Translations under genes and position numbers: made by a program | Shown here: piece by piece, positions 53,748 through 64,000 of the stretch | Numbering within the stretch: the stretch's first letter is position 1 | How the letters are laid out: the number at the start of each line of letters is the position of its first letter | Assembly (NCBI RefSeq): GCF_010894455.1 | Contig: NZ_JAAIXY010000009.1 | Span: 124,001 to 188,000 of the forward strand | Direction of reading: 5' to 3' | Length of the DNA: 64,000 nucleotides | From: Myxococcus eversor | GTDB taxonomy: Bacteria > Myxococcota > Myxococcia > Myxococcales > Myxococcaceae | The notes under the pieces: model-generated | The model's database searches: none | Told to the model about the DNA's origin: nothing | Seen by the model: only the letters and a program-made list of their open reading frames with translations

Positions 53748-54494
53748 TCAGCCTTCCAGTCGCGCCTTCAGGAACGCGGCCATCCGCTCCAACTCCTCGG
53801 CGTCAATCGTGTGCGGCCCGTCGAAGGGGAGGAAGTCCACGGACAGTCCCGCCTGCACCAGCGCGTCGCGCAGGCGCTCGCCCGTCACGAAGGGCAGCAC
53901 GTCGTCATGGCGGCCGTGGCCCTGGAACACCGGCAGCCCTTGCCGGGCCTGGGCCTTCTGCTTCCACTCCTCCTCCGCGATGAGCGTGCCGGAGAGGATG
54001 CACAGCCCGGCCGGTCGCTCCTCCAGCCGCAGGGCCACATCCGTCGTCACCATGCCTCCCTGGCTGAAGCCGCCCAGGACGATGCGTCCATAGGGCAGCT
54101 TCGACGAGGTCGACAGTGCGTCCACCGTGGACATCAGGGCGCGACGCGCGGCGGGAAGTCCCTCGGGCACCTGCTTCGAATAGGCCTCCCAGTCCCGCAT
54201 CTGCCCGCGCATGAATGCCTCGGGCAGATGGAACCAGGCACGTCCCTGGGGCATGCCCCACTGCGCCATCGTCAGCGGACCGCCGGGCATCACGAAGCGC
54301 ACGCGCTCCGCCAATGCGGGCTCCACCGCCATCAGCTCCGGCACCAGCGATACCAGGTCGGTCGCCGAGGCGCCCAGGCCGTGACAGAGCACCACCGCCA
54401 GCTCCGGCACGGCGCCTTCGGCGAGCCCGTCCACCACCTGGCAGTCCAGCTCGCCCAGGCGCGTGGCCACGCGTCGGAGGTTGCGTCGCTCCAT
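53748..54494 (-). CDS. Phospholipase/carboxylesterase family alpha/beta hydrolase
   Basis: A 248-residue hydrolase. Nucleophile Ser in VLGGFSQGGMVTTDVAL; Asp in GRHDDVLPF and His in FDGPHTIDAEELE complete the triad; the N-terminal VVLCHGLGASATDLVSLVPEL contains the oxyanion HG. This is the acyl-protein-thioesterase-like YpfH/EstB family. Start: ATG overlapping the TGA of the upstream cyclophilin gene by one base (TGATG); a GTG just upstream is possible. Likely cytoplasmic, acting on short acyl esters. Confidence 0.88.
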   Translation of the reverse strand: MERRNLRRVATRLGELDCQVVDGLAEGAVPELAVVLCHGLGASATDLVSLVPELMAVEPALAERVRFVMPGGPLTMAQWGMPQGRAWFHLPEAFMRGQMRDWEAYSKQVPEGLPAARRALMSTVDALSTSSKLPYGRIVLGGFSQGGMVTTDVALRLEERPAGLCILSGTLIAEEEWKQKAQARQGLPVFQGHGRHDDVLPFVTGERLRDALVQAGLSVDFLPFDGPHTIDAEELERMAAFLKARLEG

Positions 54495-55192
54495 CACTGC
54501 GCGTCCGCGAGCGAAATCTTCTGGATGACGACGGGGTCCACCGGCCGGTCGCCCGGGCTCGTCGCCACCTTGGAAATCTTCTCCACGACGTCGTAGCCCT
54601 TCACCACCTCACCGAAGATGGTGTGCTTGTTGTTGAGGTAGGCCGGCGTGGACGTGGTGATGAAGAACTGGCTGCCATTGGTGCCCGGGCCCGCGTTGGC
54701 CATGGCCAGCAGGCCCGGCTTGTCGAACGTGCGGCCGCTCTTGAACTCGTCGCCGAAGCGGTAGCCCGGGTCACCCCGGCCGGTACCCGTCGGGTCTCCG
54801 CCCTGAATCATGAAGCCCGGAATCACGCGGTGGAAGATGACGCCGTCGTACAGCGCCTTGCCCGTCACGCGCTCGCCGCTGCGAGGGTCCGTCCACGACT
54901 TCTCGCCCGTGGCCAGGCCCACGAAGTTGGACACCGTGTTGGGCGCGTCCTTCGAGAACAGTCGCACGACGATGGGGCCCTGGTTCGTCTCCAGCGTGGC
55001 CTGGATGTCCTGGCCGGCCTGGACCTTCTTCATCCACTCGCCCGGGGCTTCCTCGGAGGGCCTCGGGGCCGAGGGCTGGGCCGGCGCCGGCGTGGAACTG
55101 CCCGTGGACTCCTTCTTCTCGGTGGAGTCCTTGCAGGCGGTGGCGGTGAAGGTGAGGCACAGGAGGAGGGCGCTCAGGATTCTGGTGGTCAT
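54494..55192 (-). CDS. Exported cyclophilin-type peptidyl-prolyl isomerase lipoprotein
   Basis: A 232-residue PPIase. Lipoprotein signal: SALLLCLTFTATAC with Cys at 20; a Pro/Ser linker; then the cyclophilin core with NFVGLATGEKSW, YDGVIFHRVIPGFMIQGGDP (catalytic Arg in FHRV), GPGTNGSQFFITTSTPAYL (Gln in SQFFI) and HTIFGEVVKGYDVV. It helps periplasmic protein folding. It heads the operon with the esterase and yjbQ genes, coupled by a one-base overlap. Confidence 0.93.
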   Translation of the reverse strand: MTTRILSALLLCLTFTATACKDSTEKKESTGSSTPAPAQPSAPRPSEEAPGEWMKKVQAGQDIQATLETNQGPIVVRLFSKDAPNTVSNFVGLATGEKSWTDPRSGERVTGKALYDGVIFHRVIPGFMIQGGDPTGTGRGDPGYRFGDEFKSGRTFDKPGLLAMANAGPGTNGSQFFITTSTPAYLNNKHTIFGEVVKGYDVVEKISKVATSPGDRPVDPVVIQKISLADAQ

Positions 55193-55367
55193 GGGGCGCG
55201 CAGATTAACCGACCTTCGACGAATTACAGGGGGTTACGTCGTCCCGCGTGGACCCGGAGTTCTCCGGGAGGCAAAATCGCCCGCCAGCGGCCCCTCTCGA
55301 CGCAACATTCGGAACCAGGGCACGATGATTCCCCTGGAGCACCCCGAATCTCGTCCGGAGTCCCGAG

Positions 55368-56333
55368 TTGGCGCCCATCGAGCCGCGTACCACCCCGAGT
55401 CCTGTTCCCACCTCCCGGCCTTCACAGCCCACGGCCGCGCCGCTTCCGGTGTGCCGGGCTGAAACCCCGGCCGCGCCCGCGGGACGGACGCCGGACCGCT
55501 GGGAGGAGGGCGCCAACGAGGTGGCCCGGGCCACCAACGGGGTGCGGCAGTTCTCCGACGCGGTCGGCGCCACCCAGGTGAACCGCGCTCAGGGCCCCAT
55601 CCGCTTCGGGCGTATCGACACGGGCCTGCTCGGCACCACCGTGACGGGCGCGAACACCCAGCCCGCTCGCCTGGCTGGCGGCGTGTCCACGGCGGCCAGC
55701 GTGGCGCAGCTCCCCGGCGCGGCCTACCTGGCGTTCCGCGATGTGCGCGACGCCTTCCGCGCTCCGTCCGCTGACTCCGCCAACAGGGCGGCCGGCTCCA
55801 CGGCGAGCCTGGCGTCCACCGGCCTCAACGTGGCCAAGGGCGGCCTGGACCTCGCGGGCAACGTGAGCAACTACCGCGCGGCGGCCGACGCTGCTCGCGC
55901 CGCCTTCACGCAGGCGGCGCCGGAGGCCTCGGCCGCGGCGGCGAACCGCGTGGCGACCGCCGCCGCTTCCGAGGGCGTGCTGGGCGGGTCCCGTCAGGTG
56001 ATGCGCAACGCCGCCGCTCGCGCCGCGGGCGAGGGCCTGGAGGACGCGGGCCGTCTGGGCGCGAACGCCGCCCGCACCGCGCTGCGGGATGGTGGCACGG
56101 CCGTGGCCAGGGCCGCGGGTCGCTTCGCGCCGGGCCTCAACGTCGCCATCGCCGCCGCGGACACCGCCGCCGCCGCGAGCACGCTGGCCGACCCCAACGC
56201 GTCGGTGGGCCGAAGGGTCACCGCCAGCGTCACCGCGCTGGGCTCCGTCGCCGCCGCCACCAACATCCCGCTGGTCAGCCAGACAGGCGCTGTCGTCTCG
56301 ACGGCGTCCAGCTTCGTCGGCGCGTTCTTCTAG
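55368..56333 (+). CDS. Ala-rich amphipathic protein, function unknown
   Basis: A 321-residue protein dominated by Ala, Gly, Thr, Val and Arg (RAAGEGLEDAGRLGANAARTALRDGGTAVARA, shown in part). Pro-rich residues 1-45 precede it. Several segments could be amphipathic or membrane helices (for example LNVAIAAADTAAAASTLA), and it ends in TASSFVGAFF. No signal peptide is visible. This composition is seen in secreted effector-like or contact-dependent proteins of myxobacteria, but no motif supports that. The start is TTG with weak support; an alternative GTG lies at 55449. Upstream 175 bases is the divergent promoter region with the cyclophilin operon. Confidence 0.6.
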   Translation: MAPIEPRTTPSPVPTSRPSQPTAAPLPVCRAETPAAPAGRTPDRWEEGANEVARATNGVRQFSDAVGATQVNRAQGPIRFGRIDTGLLGTTVTGANTQPARLAGGVSTAASVAQLPGAAYLAFRDVRDAFRAPSADSANRAAGSTASLASTGLNVAKGGLDLAGNVSNYRAAADAARAAFTQAAPEASAAAANRVATAAASEGVLGGSRQVMRNAAARAAGEGLEDAGRLGANAARTALRDGGTAVARAAGRFAPGLNVAIAAADTAAAASTLADPNASVGRRVTASVTALGSVAAATNIPLVSQTGAVVSTASSFVGAFF

Positions 56334-56389
56334 GCGCCGCGCCGCCTCCTCCGCTCTGTGGTATCCGGACCTCCCGGAGCGGAGGAAGC

Positions 56390-57478
56390 ATGACGTCCCA
56401 GAACGACTCGAAGGGTGGCGGTGCGCGCTCGCTGGCCGAGCTTCATGCGCTCGGCATCATGAAGCGCATGCCCGCGTCGATGTCGCTGGGCAGCACCGAG
56501 CCCGTCTCCCTCCCCACCGTGCAGGCGCCTTCCCTCGAAGGGCTGACGGTGGCCCTGCGCGCCCCTGGCCCCATCGACGAGCAGTCCCTGGTGGCGCGCT
56601 TCGATGTGCTGCGCCGCCAGCACGCCGACCGCCGGGTGCGCCTCGCGGGCGAGGTCGTGGGGCTCGGCGACGAGGTGCTGCTGGAAGTGCTCGGCTTCGC
56701 CAACGGCCGGCTCATCCCCTTCTCCGCGCGGGAGAACTGGCGGGCGGAGGTGGCCCCCGACGCGCTGCTGCCCGGCTTCTTCGAGGCGCTGGTGGGCGCG
56801 AAGGTGGGCCAGTCCTTCGGCATCGAGCTGACGCTGCCGGACACCTACGTGGTGGAGTCGCTGCGCGGCGCGACGGCGCGCTTCCTGCTCGACGTGAAGG
56901 CCGCCTCCGAGATGAAGCTGCTGGAGGATGACTCGCCGGTGCTGCTCGAGCGCCTGGGGCTGGGCACCCTCACCGACGTGATGGCCCACCTGGGCGACAC
57001 GCTCGCCCGCGAGCGCACCGCGGAGATGGACCGGCTCACCCAGGAGCGCGTGCTGGACGAAGTGGTGGCGCGCACGAAGGTGACGCTGACGCCGGCACTG
57101 GTGGACGAGGAGATTCGTCGCCGCTGGGCGGAGGTCGAGCGGCCCATGTTGATTCGCAAGGACTTCCAGCCGAACGAACTCCAGGAGGCGCTGGAGGGCT
57201 GGTTGAGGGAGCCGCTCACCCGCGCGGACGCGGAGCGGCGGCTGACGCTGGCGCTGGCGCTGCGGGCCATCGCCGCGCGCGACGGCGTGAAGCTGGCGAA
57301 GGGCGCGGTGGACGCGCTGGTGGATGACCTGGCCGCGCTGTCGGGTGTCTCCCGTCAGGACCTCATCCGCGCGATGAAGGAAGACACCTTGCTGGCGAAG
57401 CGGGTGGAGGACCTGGCGCTGCACTTCGCCACCATCGACAGCGTCATGCGGCGCGTGTCGCTGACGCCGCCGACCTGA
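56390..57478 (+). CDS. Trigger-factor-like protein with FKBP-like domain
   Basis: A 362-residue protein. Residues about 95-170 form an FKBP-like domain (VAPDALLPGFFEALVGAKVGQSF; GIELTLPDTYVVESLRGATARFLL), and residues 195-340 resemble the trigger-factor C-terminal chaperone arms (RTAEMDRLTQERVLDEVVARTKVTLTPALVDEEI; ALALRAIAARDGV). The N-terminal ribosome-binding signature GFRXGXXP is missing, so it is not the housekeeping trigger factor but a divergent paralogue that may serve another client. ATG has GGAGGAAGC upstream. It follows the Ala-rich gene by 57 bases; whether the pair is functional together is unknown. Confidence 0.82.
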   Translation: MTSQNDSKGGGARSLAELHALGIMKRMPASMSLGSTEPVSLPTVQAPSLEGLTVALRAPGPIDEQSLVARFDVLRRQHADRRVRLAGEVVGLGDEVLLEVLGFANGRLIPFSARENWRAEVAPDALLPGFFEALVGAKVGQSFGIELTLPDTYVVESLRGATARFLLDVKAASEMKLLEDDSPVLLERLGLGTLTDVMAHLGDTLARERTAEMDRLTQERVLDEVVARTKVTLTPALVDEEIRRRWAEVERPMLIRKDFQPNELQEALEGWLREPLTRADAERRLTLALALRAIAARDGVKLAKGAVDALVDDLAALSGVSRQDLIRAMKEDTLLAKRVEDLALHFATIDSVMRRVSLTPPT

Positions 57479-58596: not shown

Positions 58597-58614
58597 GGGA
58601 GGACTTCGAAGCTG
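58597..58614 (+). promoter_or_regulatory. Shine-Dalgarno GGGAGG with CTG start of speD
   Basis: A strong GGGAGG (58597-58602) is nine bases from an in-frame CTG at 58612. No ATG, and only a distant GTG (58573), precede the conserved SpeD sequence TTGQEWLVDASG. The spacing is ideal for initiation at CTG, a rare start codon, which may limit AdoMet decarboxylase synthesis. Confidence 0.65.
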
Positions 58615-58962
58615 ACCACCGGACAGGAATGGCTGGTTGACGCGAGCGGCTGCTCGCCTGGACTGCTCAAGGACGCGGCGGCGTTGGCGGCGCTCTTCGA
58701 GGAGCTGCTCGTCCTGCTCGACCTGAAGGTCGTGGGCCAGCCGCAGTGGCACGTGTTTCCAGAGCCTGGTGGCATCACCGGGCTGACGCTGCTGGCGGAG
58801 AGTCACCTGGCCATCCACACCTTCCCGGAGCATGGCTTCGCCGCGCTCAATGTCTACTGCTGCCGCCCTCGCGCGCGCCCCGACTTCGAGTCGCTGCTGA
58901 CGCGCCACCTGAAGGCGGCCTCGTGCGAGGTGCGTGAGCTGAAGCGGGGGGTGAAGGCGTGA
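58612..58962 (+). CDS. speD: S-adenosylmethionine decarboxylase (pyruvoyl type)
   Basis: A 116-residue proenzyme of the short bacterial/archaeal SpeD class. Autocleavage occurs between Glu63 and Ser64 (LLAESHLAIHT); His69 and Cys84 (VYCC) are the other active-site residues, spaced as in Thermotoga SpeD (Ser63, His68, Cys83). It makes decarboxylated AdoMet, the aminopropyl donor for polyamine synthesis. The start is CTG, since MTTGQEWLVDASG-like N-termini are conserved; if GTG 58573 were used the protein would have 13 more residues. Its stop overlaps the DUF4178 gene start (GTGA), heading a five- or six-gene operon. Confidence 0.9.
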   Translation: MTTGQEWLVDASGCSPGLLKDAAALAALFEELLVLLDLKVVGQPQWHVFPEPGGITGLTLLAESHLAIHTFPEHGFAALNVYCCRPRARPDFESLLTRHLKAASCEVRELKRGVKA

Positions 58963-60857
58963 GCTTGGGGAGGTGTCCGTCGTGCGGCGCGGATGTGGAG
59001 TTCACCGCCGGCTCGGCGCAGGTGATTGTGTGCGGCCACTGCCAGACGGTGGTGGCTCGCAAGGGCGACAACTTCGAGTCGCGCGGGAAGATTGGCCGCA
59101 TCCTCGTCACCGACTCGCCGCTCCAACTGGGCGCGGAGGGTCGCTACGCGCGCACCGCGTTCCAGGTGGTGGGCCACCTCCAGAAGGACCATGGCGCGGG
59201 CCCCTGGGACGAGTGGTACGTGGAGTTCTCCGACGGGCGCTCCGCGTGGGTGAGCGAGTCCGAGGGCGCCTTCCACATGGTCCTCGACGCGGGCGTGGAG
59301 GAGGGCGTGTCGCTCTCCGACCTGCACCCCGGCGAGCGCCTGCGCCTGCGCAACCGCGCCTGGGTGGTGGAGGAGCGCGGCCACGGCAAGGTGGTGGCCG
59401 CCGAAGGCCAGCTCCCCAGCGACGTGGACCCCACGCAGGACTCCTATTACGTCGACGCCACCGGCTCCAAGGGCGCCTTCATCACGCTCGACTTCGGCAC
59501 GCGCGACAGGGACCCCGAGGTCTTCATCGGCGAGCGGCTCAAGCTGGAGCAGCTCGGGATTCCCGTCGACCAGCTCCGCCCCCGCGCCCAGCGCAAGGTG
59601 GACCTCCAGCAGGCTCGCTGCACCGAGTGCAACGGCCCCCTGGAGCTGCGCGCCCCGGACAAGTCCCTGCGCGTGGGCTGCCCGTTCTGCGGCGCGCTCC
59701 TGGACGTCAGCAAGGGCAAGCTGTCCTTCCTGCGGCTGTTGGAGAAGCCGGACCACGCGCCCATCATCCCGCTGGGGGCCAAGGGCACGCTGAAGGGCAC
59801 CGAGTGGATGTGCATCGGCTTCCTGGTGCGCTCCTGCACGGTGGAGGGCGTGCGCTATCCGTGGGAGGAGTACCTGCTCTTCCACCGGGCGAAGGGCTTC
59901 GTCTGGCTGATGCTCTCCAACGGCCACTGGGTGTTCCTGGAGCCGCTGGCCGCCGGTGACGTGGAGCTGGTGCCCCTGAGGTCCGCCTTCCACGACGGCC
60001 GCCGCTACAAGGCCTTCCAGAACGTGCACGCCGTCACGGAGAACGTGCAGGGCGAGTTCTACTGGGAGGTGACGGCGGGCGAGTACGCCGAGGCCACCGA
60101 GTACGTGTCCCCCCCGTACTCCATCAACGTGGACGCCACCGAGGACGAGGTGACGTACACGTTCGGCGAGTACCTGGATCCCCAGGTGGTGAAGGACGCG
60201 TTCAAGCTGAAGGAGGTCGGGCCGACGTACGGCATCGTCCCCAGCCAGCCCAATCCCCTCTCGGCGGGGATGCGCTCCACCATGCTGTGGTCCTTCCTCT
60301 GGATTCTGGGGCTGCTGCTCCTGGCGGGCCTCTTCTCCGGCTTCGCGCGGGAGCAGGTGGTGCTCGAGGAGAGCGTCACGGTGCCCCCTGACGCCGCGTC
60401 CGGCACGCCCGCCGCGATGAAGTTCAGCGCGCCCTTCGAGCTGACCAAGCGCGGCAACATGAAGGTGGAGCTGGCCGCGGGCCTCAGCAACGACTGGATG
60501 GGCGTGCAGGGCGACCTGGTGAACCAGGAGACGGGCGACGTGAGGAGCTTCTATCAGGAGCTCAGTTTCTACCAGGGCAGTGACAGCGACGGCTCCTGGA
60601 GCGAGGGCAGCCCGAGCGAGAGCCTGTATCTGTCCGTGCTTCCGGCGGGCAAGTACGTGCTGCGCACCACGGCGTCCTACGACGCGTCGCCCCGACCGTC
60701 CGCGCGCAACTACAGCGTGAAGCTGGTGCACGACACGCCCAACGGCAGTTGGTTCTGCGTGGCGCTGGGGCTGCTGCTGCTGGCGCCGGCGTTCTCCTTC
60801 TTCCGCTCGCACGGCTTCGAGACGCGCCGGTGGGCGGACAGCAATCTGACGGAATAG
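58959..60857 (+). CDS. Double DUF4178 zinc-ribbon membrane protein
   Basis: A 632-residue protein. Two zinc-ribbon Cys sets: residues 6-29 (CPSCGADV, CGHCQ) and about 221-247 (CTEC, CPFCG). Two DUF4178 units follow the ribbons: about 50-190 (ARTAFQVVGHLQ, WDEWYVEFSDG) and 275-400 (EWMCIGFLVRSC, WEEYLLFHRAKG). TM helices are near 443-463 (TMLWSFLWILGLLLLAGLFS) and 608-625 (WFCVALGLLLLAPAFSF), with a beta-rich domain between. DUF4178 is commonly encoded next to DUF350 and polyamine enzymes. The GTG start overlaps the speD stop. Possibly a membrane platform for the operon; no catalytic residues are recognised. Confidence 0.85.
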   Translation: MSLGRCPSCGADVEFTAGSAQVIVCGHCQTVVARKGDNFESRGKIGRILVTDSPLQLGAEGRYARTAFQVVGHLQKDHGAGPWDEWYVEFSDGRSAWVSESEGAFHMVLDAGVEEGVSLSDLHPGERLRLRNRAWVVEERGHGKVVAAEGQLPSDVDPTQDSYYVDATGSKGAFITLDFGTRDRDPEVFIGERLKLEQLGIPVDQLRPRAQRKVDLQQARCTECNGPLELRAPDKSLRVGCPFCGALLDVSKGKLSFLRLLEKPDHAPIIPLGAKGTLKGTEWMCIGFLVRSCTVEGVRYPWEEYLLFHRAKGFVWLMLSNGHWVFLEPLAAGDVELVPLRSAFHDGRRYKAFQNVHAVTENVQGEFYWEVTAGEYAEATEYVSPPYSINVDATEDEVTYTFGEYLDPQVVKDAFKLKEVGPTYGIVPSQPNPLSAGMRSTMLWSFLWILGLLLLAGLFSGFAREQVVLEESVTVPPDAASGTPAAMKFSAPFELTKRGNMKVELAAGLSNDWMGVQGDLVNQETGDVRSFYQELSFYQGSDSDGSWSEGSPSESLYLSVLPAGKYVLRTTASYDASPRPSARNYSVKLVHDTPNGSWFCVALGLLLLAPAFSFFRSHGFETRRWADSNLTE

Positions 60858-60886
60858 ACGCGCATGGCACGACACGGAGGCGCGGC

Positions 60887-61048
60887 ATGAAGTGGTTCGG
60901 TGGGCTGGTGCTGCTGGGGTACGCGGCCATGATGGTGTCCGGGTGGTCGCCCTTCACCCGGGAGGAGAAGGACCGCGTGCCGGGCAACGTGCGTCGAGGC
61001 CCGGGTGGCATCCTGCTGTGGACCGGTGGTTTTCAGGGAGGGAAGTGA
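60887..61048 (+). CDS. 53-residue single-pass membrane peptide
   Basis: A short protein with one N-terminal hydrophobic segment (FGGLVLLGYAAMMVSGW) and a basic/polar tail ending in WTGGFQGGK. The ATG has ACGGAGG about six bases upstream, and the stop overlaps the next ATG by one base (TGATG), which supports translation. It sits between the DUF4178 and DUF350 genes, so a small subunit of that membrane complex is a plausible role. Confidence 0.65.
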   Translation: MKWFGGLVLLGYAAMMVSGWSPFTREEKDRVPGNVRRGPGGILLWTGGFQGGK

Positions 61049-61275
61049 TGCTGTTACTCGGCGTCGTCGTGAGCTGGCAGGGTGTGCTGGCGAGCGTCAT
61101 CTATTCGCTCATTGGCCTGGCGGTGTTCGTGGCGGGCTTCTTCGTCATCCGCCTCATCATGCCGTTCGACGTGCACAAGGAGCTGGAGGTCGACCAGAAC
61201 ACCGCCGTCGGCATCGTCATCGGCTCCTTCATCCTCGGCCTGTCCATCATCGTGGCCGCGGCCATCGGTGGTTGA
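61048..61275 (+). CDS. DUF350-family membrane protein
   Basis: A 75-residue protein with two membrane helices: residues 10-34 (QGVLASVIYSLIGLAVFVAGF) and 52-72 (AVGIVIGSFILGLSIIVAAA). The loop NTAVG and ends match DUF350 (YjfL-type), which is often found with SpeD-, SpeE- or ATP-grasp-type genes. It starts with a one-base overlap with the small peptide gene and precedes the synthase gene by 40 bases. Function of the family is unknown; a channel-like or subunit role is inferred. Confidence 0.82.
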   Translation: MLLLGVVVSWQGVLASVIYSLIGLAVFVAGFFVIRLIMPFDVHKELEVDQNTAVGIVIGSFILGLSIIVAAAIGG

Positions 61276-61315
61276 GGACCCGGACTCCCGCTCGAAGAAG
61301 AAGTGAAGTGACGAC

Positions 61316-62812
61316 GTGAACAAGACGCTGCTGTACATCACCGTCATCGTCATCGCGACGTGCGGGCTCGTCTACGAGCTCGTCGTCGGGGCGCTCGCCA
61401 GCTATCTGCTGGGTGACTCGATTACCCAGTTCTCCACCGTCATCGGTGGCTACCTCTTCGCGATGGGCATCGGCAGCTACCTGTCGCGCTACATCGACAA
61501 GGGGGTGGCCCAGCGGTTCGTGGAGGTGGAGCTGGCGGTGGCGCTGCTGGGCGGACTGTGCGCCCCGGTGTTGTTCCTCACCTTCACGCTGACGGACCTG
61601 TTCCAGGTGGCGCTGTACGGCAGCGTCATCATCATCGGCACGCTGGTGGGGCTGGAGATTCCCCTCCTGCTGCGCATCCTCAAGGACCAGCTCAAGTTCA
61701 AGGACCTGGTCAGTCAGGTGCTGTCGCTCGACTACCTGGGCGCGCTCGCCGCGAGCGTCGCCTTCCCGCTGCTCCTCGTCCCCAAGCTGGGGCTGGTGCG
61801 CACCTCGCTTTTGTTCGGCGTGCTGAACGCGGCGGTGGGTCTGTGGAGCACGTGGCTGCTCGCGCCGCTGTTGGGCAACCCGCTGCGCCTGCGCGTCAAG
61901 GCGGTGATGCTCACGGTGCTGCTGATGGTGGGCTTCGTGCTGGGAGACCGGCTCACGACGTTCTACGAGGACCAGCTCTACGCGGACGACGTGGTGCACG
62001 CGTCCAGCTCCCCCTACCAGCGCATCGTCCTGACGCGCGGCAAGCGGGGCTTCTCGCTGTTCCTCAACGGCAACCTCCAGTTCGCCAGCGTGGACGAGTA
62101 CCGCTACCACGAGTCGCTCGTGCACCCGGCGATGGTGCGCGCGGGCCGCGCGGAGCATGTGCTCATCCTCGGCGGTGGAGACGGGCTCGCCGCGCGCGAG
62201 GTGCTGCGCTACCCGGAGGTCCGCTCCGTCACGCTGGTGGACCTGGACCCGGCGATAACCGGGCTGGCCATGGGCTACGGGGAGCTTTCGAAGCTCAACG
62301 AGAACGCGCTGAAGGATTCGCGCATGCGCGTCATCAACGCGGACGCCATGCAGTTCCTGATGGAGGGAGACCAGCGCTATGACGTGGTGGTGGTCGACTT
62401 CCCGGACCCGAACAACTTCGCGCTGGGCAAGCTGTACACCACGGGCTTCTACAAGCTCCTGAAGAAGCGGGTGGCGCCGGACGGCGTGGCGGTGGTGCAG
62501 AGCACCAGCCCCCTGTTCGCCCGGCGTTCATTCTGGTGCGTGGAGACGACGCTGAAGGCCGCGGGCTTCTGGACGCAGCCGTACCACGCGCTGGTACCCT
62601 CGTTCGGTGAGTGGGGCTACGTGCTGGTGGCCCATGAGGCGCCGGGCCACCACCGGCCGCTGCCGGAGGGCCTGCGCTTCCTGGACATGCCCACGCTGGA
62701 GTCGCTGACGCTGTTCCCTCCGGACATGAGTCCCCTGCCCACCGAGGTGAACCGGCTCAACAACCAGGTGCTGGTGCACTACTACGAGGAGGAGTGGCGG
62801 CGGTGGAACTGA
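61316..62812 (+). CDS. Membrane-fused spermidine synthase-like aminopropyltransferase
   Basis: A 498-residue protein. Residues 1-215 hold about seven membrane helices (YITVIVIATCGLVYELVVGAL; VVGAL to LLGNPLRL). Residues 225-460 are a SpeE-type domain: DEYRYHESLVHPAM (substrate Tyr/His), VLILGGGDGLAAREVLRYPEV (AdoMet/dcAdoMet site), VDLDPA, and VVVDFPDPNNF with the catalytic Asp. It is predicted to transfer an aminopropyl group from dcAdoMet, made by the neighbouring SpeD, to an amine or other acceptor at the membrane. GTG start; RBS region AAGAAGTGAAGTGA is weak. It overlaps the oxidase gene by 10 bases. Confidence 0.92.
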   Translation: MNKTLLYITVIVIATCGLVYELVVGALASYLLGDSITQFSTVIGGYLFAMGIGSYLSRYIDKGVAQRFVEVELAVALLGGLCAPVLFLTFTLTDLFQVALYGSVIIIGTLVGLEIPLLLRILKDQLKFKDLVSQVLSLDYLGALAASVAFPLLLVPKLGLVRTSLLFGVLNAAVGLWSTWLLAPLLGNPLRLRVKAVMLTVLLMVGFVLGDRLTTFYEDQLYADDVVHASSSPYQRIVLTRGKRGFSLFLNGNLQFASVDEYRYHESLVHPAMVRAGRAEHVLILGGGDGLAAREVLRYPEVRSVTLVDLDPAITGLAMGYGELSKLNENALKDSRMRVINADAMQFLMEGDQRYDVVVVDFPDPNNFALGKLYTTGFYKLLKKRVAPDGVAVVQSTSPLFARRSFWCVETTLKAAGFWTQPYHALVPSFGEWGYVLVAHEAPGHHRPLPEGLRFLDMPTLESLTLFPPDMSPLPTEVNRLNNQVLVHYYEEEWRRWN

Positions 62813-64000
62813 CGCGGCGGGAGCTGGTCGCCGCGTTCCTCGGCTCGGCGGTGGCAAGCGGCTGCAAGCGCGAGCAGCCCCGGGCCCCCATTCCGGGCGC
62901 CATCGTCGACCGCGCGGTGGAGGTGGGGCACCGGCTGCGCGGTGGGCCGCTGCCTCGCGCCCAGACGCTGGAGACAGTGGACGTGCTGGTGGTGGGCGCG
63001 GGCGTCGCGGGCCTGTCCGCCGCGTGGCGCCTGGCGAGCGCGGGCGTGAAGGACGTCCGCGTGGTGGAGCTGGAGGCGGAGCCTGGGGGCACGTCGCGCT
63101 CCGGGAAGAACGCCGTGTCCGCCTTCCCGTGGGGTGCGCACTACCTGCCGGCGCCGACGGAGGACCGGGGGCCGGTGGTGCGGCTGCTGCGGGAGATGGG
63201 CGCGGTGTCCGGCGTGGACGCGCAGGGGCTGCCGACGTTCGAGGAGGAGCTGCTCATCCAGGAGCCGGAGGAGCGCCACTTCTACCGGGGCCACTGGTAC
63301 GACGGGCTCTACCTGCGCGTGGGCGCGACGGCGGAGGACCTGGCGGAGCTGGAGCGCTTCGACGCGAAGATGAATGCCTTCGCCGCGGCCCGGGACGCGA
63401 AGGGACGCAAGGCCTTCGCGGTGCCCACGGCGCGCTCCAGCGACGACGCCGAGTGGACGGCGCTGGATGCGCTGAGCATGGCGGCCTGGCTGACGCGCGA
63501 GGGCTTCCGCTCCACGCGCCTGAAGTGGCTGGTGGACTACGCGTGCCGCGACGACTACGGCGCCACGTCCGAGCACGTGTCCGCGTGGGCCGGCATCTGG
63601 TACTTCGCCGCGCGCCAGGACGGACAGGGCGAGCGCAGCGAGGGCTTCCTGAGCTGGCCCGAGGGCAATGGCCGCCTGGTGCATCAGCTCCTCTCCGCGC
63701 TGCCGCCCCGCGCGGTGGAGCGCGACGTGCTGGTGCACACGGTGGAGCCGGGCGAGCAGGGCTGCCGGGTGGACGCGTTGGATTCACGCACGGGCAAGCC
63801 CCGCTCCTTCCAGGCGCGACAGGTGGTGCTGGCGTGTCCGCGCTTCCTCGCGGCGCACCTGGTGGCGCCGTGGCGGACGGCGCGGCCCGCGTTCCTGGAT
63901 GCCTTCACCTACGCGCCGTGGGTGGTGGCCAACCTGACGCTGTCGTCGCTGCCCGAGTCGCGGGGCTTCCCGCTGGCGTGGGACAACGTGTTCCAGGAGA
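62803..64000 (+). CDS. FAD-dependent amine-oxidase-like protein, Tat lipoprotein (cut by window edge)
   Basis: Only the first 399 codons are present. The N-terminus has a twin-arginine start (LTRRELVAAFLGSAVASGC), with Cys near residue 20, suggesting Tat export and lipid anchoring of a folded, FAD-loaded enzyme. The Rossmann motif VLVVGAGVAGLSAAWRL is near residue 60, with GGTSRSG following, as in amine oxidases. The closest named class is flavin amine/protoporphyrinogen-type oxidase; the substrate is unknown, but the operon suggests a polyamine-like product. GTG start, with a GGAGGAGTGG ribosome site inside the previous gene. Confidence 0.87.
   Translation, partial: MELTRRELVAAFLGSAVASGCKREQPRAPIPGAIVDRAVEVGHRLRGGPLPRAQTLETVDVLVVGAGVAGLSAAWRLASAGVKDVRVVELEAEPGGTSRSGKNAVSAFPWGAHYLPAPTEDRGPVVRLLREMGAVSGVDAQGLPTFEEELLIQEPEERHFYRGHWYDGLYLRVGATAEDLAELERFDAKMNAFAAARDAKGRKAFAVPTARSSDDAEWTALDALSMAAWLTREGFRSTRLKWLVDYACRDDYGATSEHVSAWAGIWYFAARQDGQGERSEGFLSWPEGNGRLVHQLLSALPPRAVERDVLVHTVEPGEQGCRVDALDSRTGKPRSFQARQVVLACPRFLAAHLVAPWRTARPAFLDAFTYAPWVVANLTLSSLPESRGFPLAWDNVFQE

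Follow-up and report, generated by a model that had tools for sequence, protein, structure and literature searches.

A lysine-ended small membrane protein as candidate acceptor of a membrane-fused aminopropyltransferase in an operon of Myxococcus eversor

Operons that combine a synthase with seven transmembrane helices (7TM) with DUF350, DUF4178 and lipoprotein genes have been described as a class linked to PspA and polyamines (Ravi et al., 2024; PMC11237479). Its accessible text connects the class with envelope stress and speaks of 'aminopropylation of other substrates', for which Li et al. (2019) is cited. The same reference is given in the accessible part of PMC12803844 for the statement that experiments showed bacterial relatives of a membrane-fused synthase of fungi to have no part in making spermidine or spermine. 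Here we analyse a 64,000-nucleotide stretch of Myxococcus eversor (the window, by which we mean the whole stretch; contig 124 of the 11.4-Mb genome) that carries an operon of this class. The membrane synthase, SpeE-7TM, occurs in it together with a DUF350 and a DUF4178 protein, the S-adenosylmethionine (AdoMet) decarboxylase SpeD, an exported flavin adenine dinucleotide (FAD) oxidase and a small gene at 60887-61048, the tail gene, whose product ends in lysine. A preliminary description of the window had proposed an acceptor other than putrescine and a link to envelope stress, and the sources above support both; a non-putrescine acceptor is not new, having reportedly been proposed by Li et al. 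(2019), and the stress link is published as well. We consider it probable, on balance, that this is a protein-modification operon in which SpeE-7TM aminopropylates the C-terminal lysine of the 60887-61048 protein, with the oxidase acting on what is formed. Whereas the operon is known already, we are aware of no earlier proposal of a lysine-ended partner as acceptor. The main text of PMC11237479 does not mention 'lysine', and the open-licence literature searched holds no mention of an aminopropyl-lysine or a lysine-ended acceptor, which does not establish absence from print. The papers listed on polyamines of myxobacteria contributed nothing of use.

The tail gene had escaped the preliminary description. 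SpeD, DUF4178, DUF350, a SpeE-like enzyme and an exported FAD oxidase were all named there and are confirmed on the + strand by Pfam matches and the full open reading frame (ORF), but the list fell short by this sixth gene. It starts with ATG and encodes 53 residues, one hydrophobic helix and then a short tail ending GGILLWTGGFQGGK, and the protein has no match in Pfam or NCBIfam. A recurring GK-ended gene was first noticed among the ORFs in the gap between DUF4178 and DUF350 of related loci. A SpeE-7TM profile made from 20 sequences, scanned against named genomes, gave 80 loci from many phyla, the top ones among 568 confirmed stretches. For a blind count, the small ORF of highest hydrophobicity in the stretch from DUF4178 to DUF350 was picked in each locus with its last residue ignored; the fallback range reached to the synthase, or over 700 bases where neither DUF350 nor synthase was found. 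From 129 loci, 22 without DUF4178 were skipped and 107 analysed. A pick was obtained in 96 of the 107, and 93 of these 96 end in lysine. The other three are L056 and L147, where a decoy ORF beside the lysine-ended gene was picked, and L186, which ends in arginine and has no DUF350 near. The 11 loci without a pick are eight with a fused lysine-ended tail, L062, L093 and L190. Altogether 101 of the 107 analysed loci have a lysine-ended tail, eight of them fused to DUF4178 and ending FGK or HK. The residue before the final lysine is glycine in 75 and histidine in 26 of the 101, and the lysine codon in the 93 picks is AAG (57) or AAA (36). Since no pick except L186 ends in arginine, positive charge alone does not account for the ending.

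The C-terminal lysine is therefore near-invariant, and simple artefacts do not account for it. Of 368 neighbouring operon genes, 8 have lysine as the last residue, as have 145 of 4134 all-frame ORFs of at least 150 residues, which rules out a chance ending; GK or HK closes 2 of the 368 and 40 of the 4134. The gene is under purifying selection (median ratio of nonsynonymous to synonymous substitution rates, dN/dS, 0.40 over 209 pairs from 21 Myxococcaceae copies), and as the last three codons were excluded from this value, a frame artefact is ruled out too. The ending was also forecast for unseen DUF4178 sites in genomes where DUF4178 is not beside SpeE-7TM, either because it lies elsewhere or because the contig ends there. 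In the first batch, 8 of 10 searched genomes had DUF4178 and all six Myxococcaceae had the lysine-ended gene. DUF4178 was present in 12 of 12 genomes of the second batch; two sites were cut by contig ends, and all ten uncut sites had a lysine-ended tail, nine as first pick or fusion (one fused) and one, L221, as second pick. Taking both batches together, the lysine-ended gene is present in 16 of the 17 genomes that have SpeE-7TM and whose DUF4178 site, not seen beside the synthase, is uncut.

Such constancy would also suit an unmodified recognition or sorting signal, read by DUF350, DUF4178 or an insertion factor, with SpeE-7TM acting on another molecule. Short C-terminal signals can stay invariant without modification, and the tail gene stays with DUF4178, and mostly with DUF350, even where SpeE-7TM is not adjacent. 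However, genomes without SpeE-7TM beside the tail still have it elsewhere, and no arginine substitute occurs among the 101 lysine-type tails. In DUF350 systems with an ATP-grasp ligase the tail ends in glycine, so that its end tracks the enzyme chemistry and not DUF350 (five sequences). We regard the signal explanation as unlikely, though it deserves to be taken seriously.

The sequence in front of the lysine differs between lineages. Tails of Acidobacteria, Gemmatimonadetes, Planctomycetes and myxobacteria mostly end GGK, RGK, IGK or similar; those of Bacteroidetes, Leptospiraceae and several Proteobacteria end HK. Comamonadaceae have no gap; their DUF4178 protein itself closes, after a helix, with the tail, which ends GGSHK, GGGHK or similar; a DUF4178-fused tail of L063 (Myxococcota) ends FGK. 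Plasmid operons have carriers of other kinds: in Alteromonas a 510-residue lipoprotein-like protein ending GPSSGK in a different gene order, in Novosphingobium an annotated 48-residue protein ending GPSHK, and in Ensifer, Burkholderia and Tritonibacter lysine-ended candidates that were found by looking for lysine (VK in Tritonibacter). Actinobacterial DUF4247 operons were absent from the plasmid-search matches listed. Versions that, by eye, resemble lipoproteins or proteins with a signal peptide point to a tail outside. The Alteromonas mediterranea plasmid (L191) carries, beside the 510-residue protein, SpeE-7TM, speD, a toxic anion resistance protein, a single DUF4178 and a 289-residue DUF350 protein. 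On the Novosphingobium plasmid p1 (L193) an SPFH-domain protein precedes the operon, possibly a link to flotillin-type membrane organisers.

The genes of the M. eversor operon are the following:

58612-58962, + strand: speD, S-adenosylmethionine decarboxylase, 116 residues, CTG start (PF02675, E=1.1e-26; TIGR03330, 79.8 bits, cut-off 75.65)
58959-60857, + strand: protein with two DUF4178 domains (PF13785, E=8.6e-35, two stretches)
60887-61048, + strand: tail gene, 53-residue one-helix membrane protein ending GGFQGGK (sequence and coordinates; kept position)
61048-61275, + strand: DUF350 membrane protein, 75 residues (PF03994, E=1.5e-12)
61316-62812, + strand: SpeE-7TM, membrane domain at about residues 1-210 and aminopropyltransferase domain at about 221-498 (PF01564, E=3e-36; NF002956, 676 bits)
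62794-64434, + strand, running past the window end at 64000: FAD amine oxidase, exported by twin-arginine translocation (Tat type) and lipoprotein-like, 546 residues (PF01593, E=7.7e-14)

The gene order is the same in most mapped loci of the family. DUF350 most likely starts not at its ORF start 60892 but at ATG 61048, where it overlaps the tail-gene stop codon. The protein at 58959-60857 contains both DUF4178 matches of the genome and, as read from its sequence, has two Cys4 zinc-ribbon-like motifs and two hydrophobic helices near the C-terminus. Among 146 Myxococcota genomes, SpeE-7TM (match at E<=5.3e-69) is present in 79, DUF4178 in 85 and both in 77. This pairing exceeds chance, as DUF4178 occurs in 77 of the 79 genomes with SpeE-7TM and in 8 of the 67 without; the eight genomes with DUF4178 and no strong SpeE-7TM match are G100, G026, G040, G044, G055, G057, G065 and G127. 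Among the matches listed for the named genomes, the nearest synthases come from Myxococcaceae, with 90% identity in Pyxidicoccus and 83-84% in Corallococcus. A synthase 89% identical to that of M. eversor, in Myxococcus gene order, also appears in a record titled Comamonas sp. KCTC 72670 (L087, BNCN01000002.1), which is probably mislabelled or contaminated, and a Rhodovulum match is a synthase fragment only.

SpeE-7TM is built on an aminopropyltransferase domain. It scores over the NCBIfam cut-off of NF002956, polyamine aminopropyltransferase, and its AlphaFold model (predicted local distance difference test score, pLDDT, 91.1) matches in the catalytic domain best the Thermus polyamine aminopropyltransferase 1uir (Z 36.0, root-mean-square deviation 1.8 A, 268 residues aligned). 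GGxDG, DExRYH and PDP are invariant in 56 SpeE-7TM sequences, where GGxDG denotes two invariant glycines, one nearly invariant glycine, aspartate and glycine; the enzyme combines a SpeE fold with the motifs for decarboxylated AdoMet (dcAdoMet). A PSFGEWGF-like motif with invariant phenylalanine replaces IPTYPSG of B. subtilis SpeE, and the Thermus enzyme likewise has phenylalanine. These motifs are those of aminopropyltransferases in general, and together with the NCBIfam name they fit an enzyme that makes ordinary spermidine or another free polyamine at the membrane, with the small protein as a regulatory subunit. The genome is compatible with this, as it encodes the biosynthetic arginine decarboxylase speA and a single speD, and none of its seven PF01564 matches, of which that in the operon scores highest, exceeds the speE cut-off (TIGR00417). 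A free-polyamine product would, however, leave the kept C-terminal lysine without a role, and it conflicts with the statement on bacterial relatives in the accessible part of PMC12803844. We give it a small chance. Three further ORFs of the genome (L005, L006 and L010), of 850-989 residues, have a synthase-like domain, and two of them match a fused MFS (major facilitator superfamily)/spermidine synthase model.

The combination of genes had led the preliminary description to think of a possible lipid or cell-wall modification. The fusion of the enzyme to a membrane domain speaks for it, and the envelope stress link and the 'other substrates' in the accessible text of PMC11237479 could be read in the same way. 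We found nothing in support of this idea. The recurrent unexplained gene in the mapped gaps and operons is that of a lysine-ended small membrane protein, and no recurring lipid- or peptidoglycan-synthesis gene was seen, though the flanks were not scanned systematically. Aminopropylation of lipids or the cell wall has, in our view, a similarly small chance, if not quite so small as that of free polyamines. As for the membrane domain itself, the preliminary count of seven helices agrees with the hydropathy of SpeE-7TM, but the model has one unbroken helix of 54 residues, 128-181, so that the count (six or seven) and its parity are unsettled. Lysine and arginine residues of the membrane domain lie at the N-terminus and in the loops 57-68, 117-136 and 177-196, and if there are seven helices, this charge pattern favours a catalytic domain outside. 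No match to the membrane domain alone was listed in the structure comparisons, which says nothing about its fold.

The two enzymes that would frame the synthase reaction are SpeD and the oxidase. SpeD has only one match in the genome, and no protein there is over the cut-off for nspC, which fits a modification of the tail. Its CTG start at 58612 is preceded by a Shine-Dalgarno-like GGGAGGA, and at the matching place 17 of 18 Myxococcaceae loci have CTG (13) or GTG (4), a kept non-standard start at which gene callers would miss or misplace speD. The oxidase has the Amino_oxidase fold with an N-terminal FAD motif and resembles monoamine, putrescine and spermidine oxidases (Z 29.4 to 8p84, 28.6 to putrescine oxidase 2yg7 and 27.6 to spermidine dehydrogenase 7d9i), values that lie close together. 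Of 85 homologues, 78 have a twin-arginine motif, searched with a loose pattern, ahead of the FAD motif, in agreement with the earlier proposal of an oxidation outside. An exported amine-oxidase fold beside a lysine-ended tail might suggest that the oxidase alone acts on the lysine, as a lysyl oxidase would in forming allysine, with SpeE-7TM supplying a different product. Yet no oxidase was found in 43 of the 129 loci, which include some that are truncated, and the lysine is kept in those that have the tail; dcAdoMet would also be left unused. We find this hardly credible.

How the parts might work together can be sketched for the preferred modification of the tail protein. SpeD would make dcAdoMet in the cytoplasm, and SpeE-7TM would move the aminopropyl group not to free putrescine but to the amine in the side chain of the final lysine. 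The lysine side chain consists of four CH2 groups and an amine and resembles putrescine; because of this mimicry the reaction would yield C-terminal N-epsilon-(3-aminopropyl)lysine, with which a glycine-rich envelope tail would be capped in the manner of spermidine. DUF350 and the DUF4178 protein are standing partners that probably present or sense the tail, and the Tat-exported oxidase could oxidise the capped amine outside to an aldehyde for cross-linking or turnover. If the transfer takes place outside, the membrane domain would, speculatively, have to carry dcAdoMet across. We know of no acceptor for the SpeE-7TM family; the acceptor question becomes testable once it is tied to a single gene, residue and mass shift. 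The family is found in many bacterial phyla in the profile scan of named genomes, and if the modification is real, the database name 'polyamine aminopropyltransferase' would have to be corrected for it.

Several points weigh against a tail modification. The gene set, its conservation, the near-invariant lysine and the folds of the two enzymes are shown, whereas we infer the aminopropyl transfer, the oxidation, the side of the membrane and what the system does for the cell. dcAdoMet is a product of the cytoplasm, yet the tail and the oxidase seem to lie outside it, as does the synthase domain to judge by its loop charges. SpeE-7TM is not the sole candidate partner of SpeD, because four more proteins encoded in the genome score above the low cut-off that NCBIfam sets for its broad 'fused MFS/spermidine synthase' model. 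Oxidase and SpeD are not always adjacent, being found in 86 and 68 of 129 loci, some of which are cut by contig ends. The lysine-ended proteins of L062 and L093 were found only by looking for them, and L190, in genome G100 with DUF4178 and no strong SpeE-7TM match, has no tail. In G031 no tail was found at DUF4178 (L186), and a contig end truncates the flank of the separate DUF350 locus (L055). The locus counts are not independent, since many of the loci are closely related, with about 26 of the 101 lysine-ended tails from Myxococcaceae. Finally, the tail stop lies at most 6 nucleotides from the DUF350 start in 64 of 74 GK-type loci, and with this spacing the last codons, GGN-GGN-AAR, could double as the Shine-Dalgarno site of DUF350. 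The overlap is real, but it does not explain the lysine that is kept in the HK type (2 of 16 adjacent) and in fused and distant tails, and both AAG and AAA are used; we therefore reject it as the source of GGK.

All genes of the operon lie on the + strand. Upstream are a hydrolase-like gene on the opposite strand and a trigger-factor-like gene; a cyclophilin-type isomerase and a protein with a trigger-factor C-domain at 54494-57478 form a small foldase cluster. A sulfatase, an acyl-CoA dehydrogenase and others follow the oxidase. ATP-grasp or PspA-type partners, which the preliminary description had suggested looking for beyond 64000, were not among the five downstream ORFs scanned (larger ORFs only). 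The Pfam scans likewise showed neither an ATP-grasp nor a PspA family in the operon genes and flanking ORFs scanned, and the single PspA match of the genome is on another contig; no CesT/Tir-type family surfaced in the scans of neighbouring genes, among which no dedicated CesT/Tir search was made. The second DUF350 protein of the genome (contig 44, 141302-141757, L241) adjoins a lipoprotein-like gene, and by eye, without a family scan, the ORFs printed there include no synthase, ligase or tail ending in lysine or Gly-Gly.

The closest described systems resemble the M. eversor operon in part. PspA-CesT/Tir operons share its membrane synthase, DUF350 and DUF4178, and in the accessible text they also have a lipoprotein named 'Ctha_1186' (PMC11237479); M. 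eversor, in contrast, has SpeD and the FAD oxidase, and no PspA among the genes scanned. Its small membrane protein has no Pfam or NCBIfam match by which to compare it with Ctha_1186. A system with the same enzyme pair, an AdoMet decarboxylase (AdoMetDC) and an MFS-like fusion with spermidine synthase (SpdSyn), reportedly accompanied by DUF350, is attributed to Li et al. in 2019; an acceptor other than putrescine is said to have been inferred there, but none is known to have been named, whereas an acceptor is proposed here. A second likeness leads to E. coli, where yjfM and ygiB (DUF1190) adjoin yjfC and ygiC, named peptide-spermidine ligases by RefSeq, and where yjfL, a DUF350 gene, is in an operon with yjfM; the ligase activity of YgiC/YjfC is cited in the accessible parts of PMC12568646 and PMC10948618. 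DUF1190 was found in 3 of 185 genomes, and all five proteins, two of E. coli and three others whose neighbours were not read, end in Gly-Gly, preceded by an SRGGFG-like motif similar to the SRGGFLGGK of L056 and L060. Pederick et al. reportedly described YgiC/YjfC in 2023 as peptide-spermidine ligases. Both kinds of system have a DUF350 partner (in the yjf operon), a glycine-rich tail, a short kept C-terminal motif and polyamine chemistry on peptides. They differ in the enzyme and in the last residue, an ATP-grasp ligase with Gly-Gly in one case and an aminopropyltransferase with GGK (Gly/His-Lys in the family) in the other. The ligase needs a C-terminal carboxylate and the aminopropyltransferase an amine, and for this reason we put forward the hypothesis, with five DUF1190 sequences, that the last residue may follow the enzyme present. 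Whether C-terminal N-epsilon-(3-aminopropyl)lysine is a new modification, widespread across phyla and a chemical twin of the ATP-grasp spermidine route, both converging on polyamine-capped tails served by DUF350, seems to us evenly poised. If so, it would add a protein modification and explain why DUF350 occurs with both aminopropyltransferases and peptide-spermidine ligases. A further known likeness is deoxyhypusine of eIF5A: there, too, a lysine side-chain amine bears an aminoalkyl group derived from a polyamine, but the group is an aminobutyl from spermidine, the lysine internal and the enzyme unrelated.

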